A stretch of DNA of 64,000 nucleotides, taken from positions 744,001 to 808,000 of the forward strand of contig NZ_CP014841.1 in the NCBI RefSeq assembly GCF_001641285.1, written 5' to 3'. The notes below the pieces were generated by a model. The model searched no databases, was not told the origin of the DNA, and worked only from the letters and a program-made list of their open reading frames with translations. The DNA comes from Dyella thiooxydans. Its GTDB lineage: Bacteria > Pseudomonadota > Gammaproteobacteria > Xanthomonadales > Rhodanobacteraceae. The position numbers and the translations under genes were made by a program. Below, in pieces: positions 59,646-64,000 of this stretch (position 1 is its first letter; every line of letters begins with the position of its first letter).

Positions 59646-60299
59646 GTGCTGGAAATCCTGATGGCTGGCGGTTGGGCGATGGCGCCCATCCTGTTTTGTT
59701 CGGCGATCGCCCTGGCGATCGTGCTGGAGCGTTTCTGGACGCTGCGCCGTTCGTCCGTGCTCCCGCCCGGGCTGGGACAGGAAGTGCGTGACTGGGCCCG
59801 CAAGGGCCAGCTCGATCCCAAGCACCTGGAAACCCTGGCCAGCGGCTCCCCGCTGGGCGAACTGCTGGCCTCGGCCCTGGTCGTGCGCGACCGCTCGCGC
59901 GACATCATCAAGGAGCGCCTGGAGGACACCGGCCGCCATGTGGCGCATCGGATGGAGCGTTACCTCAACACGCTAGGCACGATCGCGCTGATCGGTCCGC
60001 TGCTGGGACTGTTCGGCACGGTGATCGGCCTGATCCGCATGTTCCTCGACGTCATGCGTGGCGGCGTGGGCGACCCGATGAAGATGGCCGGCGGCATCGG
60101 CGAGGCACTGATCTGCACGGCCACGGGTCTGGTGGTGGCGATCCCGGCCTATGTGCTGCATCGCTACTTCCGCAGCAAGGTGGCCGGATACTGCGTCGAC
60201 ATGGAGAAGGAGGCGATCGCCCTGCTGGACGATCTCACCTTCGGCACGCCGGGTGCACCGGCGACGCCGCGCCCGCGCCGCACCCCGGCGGCAGGCTGA
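59646..60299 (+). CDS. exbB: ExbB/TolQ-type proton channel protein
   Basis: The protein has 217 residues and three transmembrane helices (about 11-27, 110-133, 152-175). The motor signature GTIALIGPLLGLFGTVIGLIRMF and the conserved ALICTATGLVVAIPAYVLH are present. It forms a proton-driven motor with the following ExbD-type gene, for outer-membrane energy transfer. It starts with GTG at 59646. No TonB gene is adjacent, so its energised partner is unknown. Confidence 0.93.
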   Translation: MLEILMAGGWAMAPILFCSAIALAIVLERFWTLRRSSVLPPGLGQEVRDWARKGQLDPKHLETLASGSPLGELLASALVVRDRSRDIIKERLEDTGRHVAHRMERYLNTLGTIALIGPLLGLFGTVIGLIRMFLDVMRGGVGDPMKMAGGIGEALICTATGLVVAIPAYVLHRYFRSKVAGYCVDMEKEAIALLDDLTFGTPGAPATPRPRRTPAAG

Positions 60300-60304
60300 A
60301 ACCG

Positions 60305-60736
60305 ATGCGTATCGGTTCGGACCGTCGTCGCGACGACTTCGAGATCAACGTGATCCCGTTGATCGACGTGCTGCTGACGCTGCTGATGTTCTTCGTGCTC
60401 ACCACCACGTTCATCCAGCACTCGCGCATGCAGGTGACCCTGCCCAAGGCCAGCGCCGAGGAGCGCGACGTGCAGGCGCCGCTGCTCACGGTGATGATCG
60501 ACAAGGATGGCCGCTATTACGTAGGTAGCGACGAGGTGCTTGGCGAAGGCATCGAGCCGCTCAAGCAGATGCTGGAACAGAACTCCGGCGGCCGGCGAGA
60601 CGGCCAGGTCGTGATCCGCGCCGACGCGATGACGCCGCACCAGTACGTGGTGACCGCGATGGATGCGCTGGGGCAACTGGGCTTCACCCGATTGTCGATC
60701 GCTACCACGCCGGAGAAGCCGGGGGCGGAGCGGTGA
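60305..60736 (+). CDS. exbD: ExbD/TolR-type protein
   Basis: The protein has 143 residues, one transmembrane helix (about 18-37) with the essential Asp in NVIPLIDVLLTLLMFF, and a periplasmic C-terminal domain. It completes the ExbB motor. The ATG follows 5 bases after exbB and lies inside a small ACCGAT-GCGT-ATCGGT hairpin. The stop overlaps the msbA start by GTGA. Confidence 0.95.
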   Translation: MRIGSDRRRDDFEINVIPLIDVLLTLLMFFVLTTTFIQHSRMQVTLPKASAEERDVQAPLLTVMIDKDGRYYVGSDEVLGEGIEPLKQMLEQNSGGRRDGQVVIRADAMTPHQYVVTAMDALGQLGFTRLSIATTPEKPGAER

Positions 60737-62508
60737 ATGCCGCGGAGCGACGAGGAGTCTGGGACGCCAAGACCTGGGAGGTCTACAAGCGCCTGTTCGG
60801 ATACACCCGCCGGTACCGGACGGTCGGGCTGCTCGCGATTCTCGGCATGGCGATCGATGGCGGTGCGCTGGCCGTGTTCACCAACTTGCTCAGGCCGCTG
60901 TTCGACGACCTGTTCAAGAACAAGGATCCGCATCTGATCTTCTGGATGCCGATCTGGATCATGATCATCTTCGCCGTGCGCGGCATCGGCACCTTCCTCA
61001 GCAGCTACGGCATCTCCTACATCGGCCGCCACGTCGTGCAGGCGATGCAGATGGATGTGTTCGGGTCCTACCTGAAGCTGCCGGCGACCTTCTTTGGCGC
61101 GGAGCCGTCCGGCCAGCAGATCTCGCGCATCACCTACACCAGCGAGCAGGTGGCGTCGGCGTCGACCGATGCGATCAAGATCGCGGTGACCGAAGGCGTC
61201 ACCGTGGTGAGCATGCTGTACGTCATGCTGCACAACAGTGCCTACCTCACGCTGGCCCTGCTGGTGATGGTGCCGGCCGTGGCGCTGATCGCCACCGTGG
61301 TCAGCCGCCGCTACCGCAGCATCAGCCGGCGTATCCAGGGGTCGATGGGCTCGGTCACCGGCACGGTCGAGGAATCGGTGGGCGCCTACCGCGAAGTCCG
61401 CATCTACGGCGGCCAGCCCCACGAGGGCGCGCGGTTCGACGAGGTCACCCGGCGCGCGCGGCGGCTCAACCTGAAGATCGCCTTGACCAGCGCCTCGTCC
61501 AGCACGGCGATCCAGACGGTCGCCGCGTTTGCGCTGGCCGTGCTGGTCTTCCTGGGCACGCGGGCTGACGTGATCGACCACATCACCTCGGGCGTGTTCA
61601 TCACCGTGCTCACCGCGATGGGCGCGATGATTCCCTCGCTGAAGCGACTGACCAACGTGCAGTCGAACATCCAGCGCGGCATGTCGGCGGCGGAAGATCT
61701 GTTCGACGTGATGGACATGGCGCCGGAAGGGGATCATGGCCGGATCGAGCTGGATCGCACCCGCGGCGATCTCGTGTTCGAGGGCATCCGCCTGCGCTAT
61801 CCACGCAGTGAGGCAGAGGCCCTGCGCGGGGTGGACCTGCGCTGTCCGCCCGGCACCGTGACCGCGCTGGTCGGCCGCTCGGGCAGCGGCAAGAGCACCC
61901 TGGTCAGTCTGCTGCCGCGGTTCTACGAGCCCAGCGCCGGCCGGATCGTGCTCGACGGCGAGGATTACCTCGACTACACCCTGGCCTCGCTACGCCGGCA
62001 AATCGCCTGGGTGGGGCAGAGCGTCGTGCTGTTCGACGGCACGGTGGCCGAGAACATCGCCTACGGCGAACTGTCCGGCGCCAGCGAGGCCGAGATCGTC
62101 GCCGCGGCCGAGGCGGCCAACGCGATGGAGTTCATCGGCCGCATGCCGCAGGGACTGCAAAGCCAGATCGGTCAGGGCGGAGGCATGCTCTCCGGAGGCC
62201 AGCGCCAGCGCATCGCGATTGCCCGGGCGATCCTGAAGAACGCGCCGATCCTGGTGCTGGACGAGGCCACCAGCGCGCTCGATACCGAATCCGAGCGGCT
62301 GATCCAGAACGCACTGCAGCGCCTCATGGAGCACCGCACGACGCTGGTGATCGCGCATCGGCTGTCGACCATCGAGGGGGCGGACCAGATCGCCGTGATG
62401 GACCACGGTCGCATCGTGGAGCAAGGCACCCACGCCGAACTGCTGGCGCTGCAGGGCCACTACGCCGCGCTCCACCGCATGCAGTTCCAGGCGCCGGCGG
62501 GCGACTGA
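60733..62508 (+). CDS. msbA: Lipid A flippase MsbA
   Basis: The protein has 591 residues. An N-terminal ABC transmembrane domain of six helices (about 25-315) is followed by the nucleotide-binding domain: Walker [20 protein letters not shown], the signature MLSGGQRQRIAIARAIL, and Walker B ILVLDEATSALD. It flips core-lipid A across the inner membrane. It starts with GTG at 60733, overlapping exbD. lpxK follows by 6 bases. Confidence 0.96.
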   Translation: MNAAERRGVWDAKTWEVYKRLFGYTRRYRTVGLLAILGMAIDGGALAVFTNLLRPLFDDLFKNKDPHLIFWMPIWIMIIFAVRGIGTFLSSYGISYIGRHVVQAMQMDVFGSYLKLPATFFGAEPSGQQISRITYTSEQVASASTDAIKIAVTEGVTVVSMLYVMLHNSAYLTLALLVMVPAVALIATVVSRRYRSISRRIQGSMGSVTGTVEESVGAYREVRIYGGQPHEGARFDEVTRRARRLNLKIALTSASSSTAIQTVAAFALAVLVFLGTRADVIDHITSGVFITVLTAMGAMIPSLKRLTNVQSNIQRGMSAAEDLFDVMDMAPEGDHGRIELDRTRGDLVFEGIRLRYPRSEAEALRGVDLRCPPGTVTALVGRSGSGKSTLVSLLPRFYEPSAGRIVLDGEDYLDYTLASLRRQIAWVGQSVVLFDGTVAENIAYGELSGASEAEIVAAAEAANAMEFIGRMPQGLQSQIGQGGGMLSGGQRQRIAIARAILKNAPILVLDEATSALDTESERLIQNALQRLMEHRTTLVIAHRLSTIEGADQIAVMDHGRIVEQGTHAELLALQGHYAALHRMQFQAPAGD

Positions 62509-62514
62509 CGCGCC

Positions 62515-63504
62515 ATGGCGCTGGCCGACGAGCTGCAGGCGAGCTGGTACGGCGATCGACGCCCGCAGGCCTGGACGTTTCCGCTGGCCGCGCTCTACGG
62601 CAGCCTCGCCGCCCTGCGGCGGATGCTGTACCGCGCTGGCATCCTGCATCGTGTCCGCCTGCCCGTGCCGGTGGTGGTGGTCGGCAACCTCACAGCCGGC
62701 GGCACCGGCAAGACGCCGCTGACCCTGGCGCTGGTCGATGCGCTGCGTCGGCGCGGCTGGCGGCCCGGCGTGGTCAGTCGTGGCTATGGTGGCACCCAGC
62801 GCGAGCCGGCGTTGCTGGACGCGCAGCCCGATCCGGCGACATTCGGCGACGAGCCCTGCCTGATCCGCGCCGGCGGCACGCCGGTGGCGGTGGGGCGGGA
62901 CCGACCCGCCGCCGCCGCGCTGCTGATTGAGGCCGGTTGCGACATGGTGATCGCCGACGATGGCCTGCAGCACTACCGCCTTGCGCGTGATGTCGAGATC
63001 TGCGTGGTCGACGGCGCGCGGCGTTTCGGCAACGGCCGGCTGCTGCCGGCCGGGCCGCTGCGCGAGCCGCTGTCGCGGCTGCGACGGGTCGATTTCCGCG
63101 TCGCCAACGGTGCCGCAGGGCCCGATGAGTTCCCGATGCGACTGGTCGGCGGCACCGCGGTTGCGCTGCTCGACGGCGAGGAGCGCCCGCTGGCCAGCTT
63201 CGCCGGTACGCCGGTGGCCGCGGTGGCCGCCATCGGCCACCCGGACCGCTTCTTCGAAAGCCTGCGTACGCAGGGGTTGGAGGTGGACGGCCATGCTTTT
63301 CCGGACCACCACGCGTTCCGCGCGTCGGAACTGGCATTCGCCGGTGCGCGCCCGTTGCTGATGACCGACAAGGACGCCATCAAGTGCGTCCGCTTCGCCC
63401 GCCCGGGCTGGTGGCGGGCGCCGATCCGGGCCGAGTTGCCCGAGGCGTTCCTCGATGCGCTCGACCGGCGCCTGCAGCAGGCGCGCTCCCACCGGGATCG
63501 CTGA
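62515..63504 (+). CDS. lpxK: Tetraacyldisaccharide 4'-kinase LpxK
   Basis: The protein has 329 residues. The P-loop is VGNLTAGGTGKTPLTLALV, followed by GVVSRGYGG, the MVIADDGLQHYRLARD motif and LLMTDKDAIKC. It adds the 4' phosphate to lipid A in the last cytosolic step. Placement next to msbA is common in proteobacteria, and the start at 62515 follows msbA by 6 bases. Confidence 0.96.
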   Translation: MALADELQASWYGDRRPQAWTFPLAALYGSLAALRRMLYRAGILHRVRLPVPVVVVGNLTAGGTGKTPLTLALVDALRRRGWRPGVVSRGYGGTQREPALLDAQPDPATFGDEPCLIRAGGTPVAVGRDRPAAAALLIEAGCDMVIADDGLQHYRLARDVEICVVDGARRFGNGRLLPAGPLREPLSRLRRVDFRVANGAAGPDEFPMRLVGGTAVALLDGEERPLASFAGTPVAAVAAIGHPDRFFESLRTQGLEVDGHAFPDHHAFRASELAFAGARPLLMTDKDAIKCVRFARPGWWRAPIRAELPEAFLDALDRRLQQARSHRDR

Positions 63505-63602
63505 CGGCTCTCCCTGGGCGGCAGCACTTCGCTCCGCCGATCCACACGAAAACCCGGCCTCCGGGAGCGGGCGCTCGACAGGCGCAGGACGGCTCGCTAG
63601 AC
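63505..63602. other. Short intergenic stretch before the YerC operator
   Basis: No gene is present. The DNA becomes AT-richer only in its last 30 bases, where the operator-like palindrome and the start of the next gene lie. A promoter for the regulator and the his operon is probably here. Confidence 0.4.
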
Positions 63603-63630
63603 TGTGCAAATGTATTAACGCATTAGCACA
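63603..63630 (+). promoter_or_regulatory. 28-bp palindromic operator-like site upstream of yerC/hisG
   Basis: The left half TGTGCAAATGTATTAA matches the reverse complement of the right half TTAACGCATTAGCACA at 12 of 14 positions: TGTGC, AATG, TTAA, CATT and GCACA are symmetric. It ends 2 bases before the start codon of the TrpR/YerC-like gene, so binding would block transcription start or translation. TrpR proteins bind dyads of similar length. No Shine-Dalgarno remains between it and the ATG. Confidence 0.7.
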
Positions 63631-63632
63631 TT

Positions 63633-63968
63633 ATGAAGCGCCGTTCCGTCGACCCCGAAACCCCCGCCGAGTCCGCCGAGCTGAGCCTCTGCGAGGCTTT
63701 GCTGTCGCTGAAGAACGCCGGGGAGATGTCGGCGTTCCTGCACGACCTGTGCACGCCGGCGGAGCTGGAGGTGCTGGTCGACCGCTGGCGGGTGGTTCCG
63801 TATCTGCTCGAGGGCGTCTCCTACCGGGAGATCCACGAGCGGACCGCGGTCAGCATCACCACGATCGGACGGGTGGCCCGGTATCTCAACCAGGGCAGTG
63901 GCGGCTACCTGGCGGCGGCCGCGCGCGCGGCCCGGCGCCGCACGAACCAGAAAAAGGACAAGGCATGA
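63633..63968 (+). CDS. TrpR/YerC-YecD-family regulator
   Basis: The protein has 111 residues with a TrpR-like helix-turn-helix: CTPAELEVLVDRWRVVPYLLEGVSYREIHERTAVSITTIGRVARYLNQG, here the helix pair around SYREIHERTAVSITTIGRV. The YerC/YecD family controls his or trp genes in several bacteria. Its stop overlaps the hisG start by ATGA, so it leads the histidine operon. The palindrome upstream is the likely autoregulatory site. Confidence 0.9.
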   Translation: MKRRSVDPETPAESAELSLCEALLSLKNAGEMSAFLHDLCTPAELEVLVDRWRVVPYLLEGVSYREIHERTAVSITTIGRVARYLNQGSGGYLAAAARAARRRTNQKKDKA

Positions 63969-64000
63969 AGACGCGCGATCGCCTGCGCATTGCGATGCAG
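63965..64000 (+). CDS. hisG: ATP phosphoribosyltransferase HisG, first 12 codons
   Basis: Twelve codons are present, MKTRDRLRIAMQ, then the window ends. The RDRLRIAxQK start is that of HisG, the first enzyme of histidine synthesis, and the gene overlaps the TrpR/YerC stop by ATGA. The identification rests on this short stretch and on context. Confidence 0.75.
   Translation, partial: MKTRDRLRIAMQ

Follow-up and report, generated by a model that had tools for sequence, protein, structure and literature searches.

A conserved 20-bp site immediately upstream of hisR-his in Dyella thiooxydans is a predicted operator of the TrpR-family regulator HisR

We analyzed a 64,000-nucleotide (nt) stretch of the Dyella thiooxydans genome, hereafter the window (contig NZ_CP014841.1, positions 744,001 to 808,000), near the end of which a small gene of the TrpR/YerC family leads hisG. 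A sequence-only reading of this DNA had described a near-perfect 28-base-pair (bp) dyad overlapping the start of that gene, and proposed autoregulation of the histidine operon through it. Our results indicate that positions 63611-63630 are very probably the operator of HisR, the product of the gene that follows, which would repress its own his operon in response to histidine. We favor this reading because the gene is a single-copy member of the expected family, and because the site lies near hisR at every locus compared, is found in no shuffled control and has no second match in the genome. It is favored further because a promoter is predicted at a conserved position just upstream, because the site agrees with a published HisR motif and a published prediction, and because a HisR homologue binds DNA in a histidine-dependent manner.

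The open reading frame that begins with the ATG at 63633 encodes a protein of 111 amino acids that matches the Pfam Trp_repressor family (PF01371; cut-off 27 bits) and the NCBIfam YerC/YecD model (TIGR02531; cut-off 42.2 bits) well above their cut-offs (scores in Table 1). Against the TrpR equivalog model, it scored 29.3 bits versus a cut-off of 67.25. No other PF01371 match was found in the 4.2-Mb genome, and the reading frame is closed 5' of the ATG by an in-frame TAG at 63624-63626. As the earlier reading had it, the gene leads hisG, whose start at 63965 overlaps the hisR stop codon. hisG continues beyond the window end; the genes after it were read in locus L140, in the order hisD, C, B, H, A, F, IE, so that hisR heads hisGDCBHAFIE. 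By family and by position at the head of the his operon, the protein is a match to HisR, which passages of Ashniev et al. 2022 (PMC9413887) describe as a YerC-type TrpR-family regulator. The TrpR contact residues Thr81 and Arg84 are kept, and Ala80 is replaced by Thr; the surrounding segment reads VSITTIGRVA in 98 of the 124 distinct loci described below and VSVTTIGRVA in 23, the remaining three being missed by the text match. The nearest named relatives by HisR protein in the GTDB collection were Dyella lutea (99% identity) and D. ginsengisoli (98%).

For the comparison of upstream regions, we used 57 loci from the 57 of 60 genomes that carry hisR (own genome counted) and 80 loci kept from 140 in the GTDB collection, a total of 137 that fell to 124 distinct loci when 13 repeats were removed. 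Each search region ran from 200 bp upstream of the tblastn match to about 50 bp into it, and the better strand was counted. The consensus TGTANTAAYGCRTTANYACA was present within 3 mismatches near hisR in all 124 loci, which are concentrated in one family and are therefore far from independent; 60 loci had no mismatch, 49 had one, 12 had two and three had three. None of 2480 mononucleotide-shuffled regions reached the consensus at 3 mismatches. The window's site matches it without mismatch and is the only match in the genome at 3 mismatches, while a control pattern also gave one match there. Counted by genome, and with the window's own among the 57 that carry hisR, 54 had a site with at most 2 mismatches beside the gene. 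Among the three genomes without hisR, two (G029 and G053) had no site and the third (G043) had one match, the same count as for the control pattern. The operator ends 2 nt before the ATG in 97 of the 124 loci, the window's among them, and lies -1 to 97 nt from a mechanically chosen start codon in the other 27.

These distributions bear on whether the site might belong to another regulator, its nearness to hisR being incidental. HisR binding is a prediction, and strong extra copies of the site follow gyrB in 6 of 30 loci (see below), but this explanation has a very low probability given that the site accompanies hisR at every distinct locus. Furthermore, no matching site at his came into view for the three genomes that lack hisR, whose his operons were not themselves inspected, and 12 of the 14 informative positions of the proteobacterial HisR motif, as printed in passages of PMC9413887, agree with the window's site when counted by eye.

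The dyad as first drawn (TGTGCAAATGTATTAACGCATTAGCACA, 63603-63630) is real and does end 2 bases 5' of the ATG, but it precedes the start codon without overlapping it, and at 11 of 14 paired positions it is imperfect. Symmetry alone is a weak argument here, because the window contains 20 28-mers with at least 11 pairs (this one included) and nine with at least 12; five mononucleotide shuffles of the window gave 6, 9, 11, 8 and 3 with at least 11. Within the 128-bp intergenic stretch, an equally good best dyad arose in 0.84% of 5000 mononucleotide shuffles. Outside the genus, the 28-bp frame paired on average at 7.14 of 14 positions in the 93 loci that share the 2-nt spacing and at 6.48 in the 27 others, while the 20-bp frame paired at 7.72 and 7.44 of 10, respectively. 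By these measures, the conserved unit is the 20-mer, with a centre of symmetry of its own that differs from that of the 28-bp dyad.

The left arm of the dyad behaves differently from the 20-mer. It is common to the four loci of the window's genus, with one base varying, while the 93 loci outside the genus that share the 2-nt spacing have a moderately conserved but different sequence there, with CGATCCAT as the majority and A about as frequent as C at the third place. Because the arm in these relatives differs from that in the window, the first-drawn dyad is, on sequence comparison, the conserved operator plus a genus-specific left arm. The sequence-only reading had held that loss of the dyad in relatives would count against it; the 20-mer is conserved there and the left arm is not, agreeing with the majority base at 3 of 8 positions. 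Its proposal of autoregulation thus gains support from conservation and from the published HisR prediction, with the 20-mer and not the 28-mer as the probable site. There is only a slim chance that the whole 28 bp, centred at 63616/63617, is the operator, at least within the genus. The window's pairing and the retention of the arm in all four own-genus loci speak for it, but these loci are close relatives (98-100% protein identity), so the identity of the arm says little; beyond the genus, the 20-mer persists but the symmetry over 28 bp does not, and the same 28 bp arises from two overlapping 20-bp sites 8 bp apart.

The predicted HisR operator lies just downstream of a predicted sigma-70-type promoter, TCGACA-17-TAGACT (63575-63603), which has 9 of 12 hexamer matches and was the sole promoter-like site on either strand in a scan of 63400-64000 (shuffle mean 0.0). 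The distance from the end of its -10 hexamer to the operator is 7 nt. Among the 97 loci whose operator ends 2 nt before the ATG, this distance for the best promoter is 5-13 nt in 94 and exactly 9 nt in 67, and the score of the best promoter exceeds the 95% point of shuffles in 87. Transcription usually begins 6-8 nt from the -10, and the start is predicted at about 63609-63611, near the operator's left edge, with a leader of about 22-24 nt that would be almost all operator. The absence of a Shine-Dalgarno sequence noted earlier was confirmed, as no Shine-Dalgarno-like 4-mer was found at -20 to -4 in any of the 97 loci (window's included); such a 4-mer was present in 2 of the 27 others. Together with the 2-nt distance from operator to ATG, this absence is what one would expect of a leaderless mRNA starting at or near 63633, as the sequence-only reading had suggested, but such an mRNA is improbable with the -10 of the best promoter ending about 29 nt before the ATG, at a position conserved in the relatives, and with no other promoter in the scan.

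Several of the 27 loci with another spacing have a best promoter that overlaps the operator; two of these 27, L037 and L054, have TTGACA or TTGCCA on one side of the operator and, on the other, a TACATT that covers the operator's right edge. The promoter therefore appears to have moved around a fixed operator, to judge from predicted promoters of which some are weak (down to 3.8, below the shuffle mean). As a separate observation, the predicted leader of the window contains ATG TAT TAA at 63610-63618, which makes a two-codon frame provided that the transcript begins at 63610 or earlier; the A before TGTA is present in 12 of the 93 loci outside the genus and mostly lacking there.

Table 1. Features at the 3' end of the window, with the basis on which each was assigned.
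Feature	Position	Strand	Basis
-35 hexamer TCGACA (predicted)	63575..63580	+	promoter scan; TTGC-type -35 at the same place in relatives
-10 hexamer TAGACT (predicted)	63598..63603	+	promoter scan; conserved position in relatives
Left arm TGTGCAAA, possible half-site for a further HisR dimer 8 bp upstream	63603..63610	.	4 own-genus loci; 13.3-bit shifted site
HisR operator (predicted), TGTATTAACGCATTAGCACA, 20 bp	63611..63630	.	conservation 124/124; 0/2480 shuffles; unique in genome
hisR, TrpR/YerC-family gene	63633..63968	+	PF01371 82.1 bits; TIGR02531 58.2 bits; single copy
hisG start	63965..64000	+	overlaps hisR stop; hisD, C, B, H, A, F, IE next in L140

A 20-mer that makes up nearly the whole predicted leader directly before the ATG could in principle work as leader RNA, i.e. 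as a hairpin, an attenuator or a translational control element, instead of as a DNA operator. According to passages of PMC9413887, the his operon of enteric bacteria is likewise controlled by histidine supply, through an attenuator. Here, however, a comparison of 60000-64000 with Rfam at E values of up to 1 found no match. We consider an RNA role very improbable, as 27 of 124 loci have the 20-mer at some other distance from the start codon and in several it overlaps the best predicted promoter, strong copies also occur after gyrB, and a leader of about 23 nt would leave little room for a leader peptide.

Furthermore, the flanks of the operator point to an 8-bp repeat, and the left arm is not a random sequence. 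In the window, a 20-bp site shifted 8 bp upstream of the operator scored 13.3 bits, a value that 0 of 200 random flanks reached, and the score in locus L004 was 16.7 bits. Scores as high or higher were obtained outside the genus (25.6 bits in L042, 18.8 in L098, 13.9 in L044 and 13.3 in L096), and such shifted copies therefore recur. Scored on the flanks alone, the 27 loci with a different operator-ATG spacing gave peaks at -8 (mean z 1.97) and +8 (2.12), with all other shifts tried at 0.95 or below; these loci favor TAA to the left of the operator and TTA or TTG to the right. The picture for all 124 loci was less clean (+8, 2.07; -8, 1.56; +5, 1.46; +7, 1.13); the right flank is constrained there by the start codon. 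That +8 or -8 was the best shift in 124 of 124 loci was not counted as evidence, unlike the flank-only scores, since it comes largely from the core's own likeness to itself at lag 8 (10 of 15 positions). The flank pattern fits tandem dimers and a longer footprint of a single dimer alike. Five loci (L042, L044, L045, L049 and L098) carry high-scoring overlapping operator copies shifted by 8 bp and are the clearest candidates for tandem binding.

Strong HisR-like 20-bp sites (21.7-33.3 bits) were also found between gyrB and a tetratricopeptide-repeat (TPR) gene, 228-320 bp upstream of the TPR ATG, in 6 of 30 loci (L153, L155, L156, L158, L159 and L160) taken from the 59 genomes in which the TPR protein had a match. 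Three more loci (L154, L161 and L164) had weak sites of 9.9-11.9 bits, and 21 were negative, the four own-genus loci included. Shuffles of the gyrB-TPR stretch reached up to 12.2 bits; this control covered the right strand for only some of the loci, of which L156, L158, L159, L160 and L161 gave 0 of 100 each. The three weak sites may be due to chance, because they are within reach of shuffles. The gyrB-linked site stands apart from a conserved block that adjoins the ATG of the TPR gene; the names of these genes come from Pfam matches in L145 (gyrB and TPR) and L141 (TPR). A site upstream of gltB was dropped as not conserved: among 30 loci of 48 genomes with a match, it was strong only in L182 (genome G033; 27.7 bits, about 108 bp upstream of gltB), the congeneric G010 gave 13.7 bits just inside the gene, and the other 28 were negative.

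Several points weigh against a HisR operator. The consensus was derived from part of the loci later counted, for which reason the shuffle control was needed, and the promoter scores depend on the hexamer weights chosen. Thr occupies the TrpR Ala80 position here and in 121 of 124 loci, while passages of PMC9413887 state that Ala80 is mostly kept in HisR. Finally, the strong extra site in some relatives has no clear role, so that the regulon is not fully explained.

The arrangement had already been predicted in print for related bacteria and is thus largely ordinary: passages of PMC9413887 place a 20-bp palindromic HisR site immediately upstream of hisR-his in Proteobacteria, with Xanthomonadales among the carriers, as at 63611-63630, and report histidine-dependent DNA binding for the Ruminococcus gnavus homologue only. 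On sequence grounds, our finding is of this predicted HisR kind. Our consensus is sharper than the TGTAnTArnnnnyTnTTACA printed there, and these passages do not mention where the promoter lies, that the operator keeps a fixed 2 nt from the ATG, the 8-bp repeat or the gyrB-linked site. Searching the open-access literature turned up no paper that deals with the site in Dyella or in its family. With the TrpR/trp operators of E. coli, the system shares the PF01371 family, the layout of half-sites around an 8-bp spacer (passages of PMC9413887) and autoregulation (passages of PMC5343134, in which HisR was not found); it differs in having his as its target and in a protein far below the TrpR equivalog cut-off.

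Altogether, our results suggest that when histidine is plentiful, histidine-bound HisR would occupy the operator, with its left edge at or beside the predicted transcription start, and would keep transcription of hisR-hisGDCBHAFIE from initiating, or stop it early in elongation; a fall in histidine would release HisR from the operator. Histidine would thus act as corepressor, the role published for the R. gnavus protein. Within the genus, a second dimer may be able to bind 8 bp farther upstream by way of the left arm, where it would reach over the edge of the -10. Tandem repressor dimers are found on some trp operators. It is possible, though we hold this only tentatively, that the operator of this order rests on an 8-bp repeat able to take tandem HisR dimers, an array to which the genus adds one half-site reaching into the -10; that in the window's family it makes up nearly the whole leader, 2 nt from the ATG, and doubles as a translation start free of a Shine-Dalgarno sequence; and that some relatives make use of a further HisR site, after gyrB, outside histidine synthesis. 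The fixed operator-ATG spacing, the 8-bp repeat within the operator and the HisR-like site after gyrB are the new details. The extent of the operator is corrected, on which the design of a gel-shift or reporter experiment would depend, and the genome of D. thiooxydans now falls under a published prediction. The fusion of operator, leader and start codon, together with the 8-bp repeat, would make this a simple system in which to test tandem binding by a TrpR-family repressor that acts outside tryptophan metabolism.
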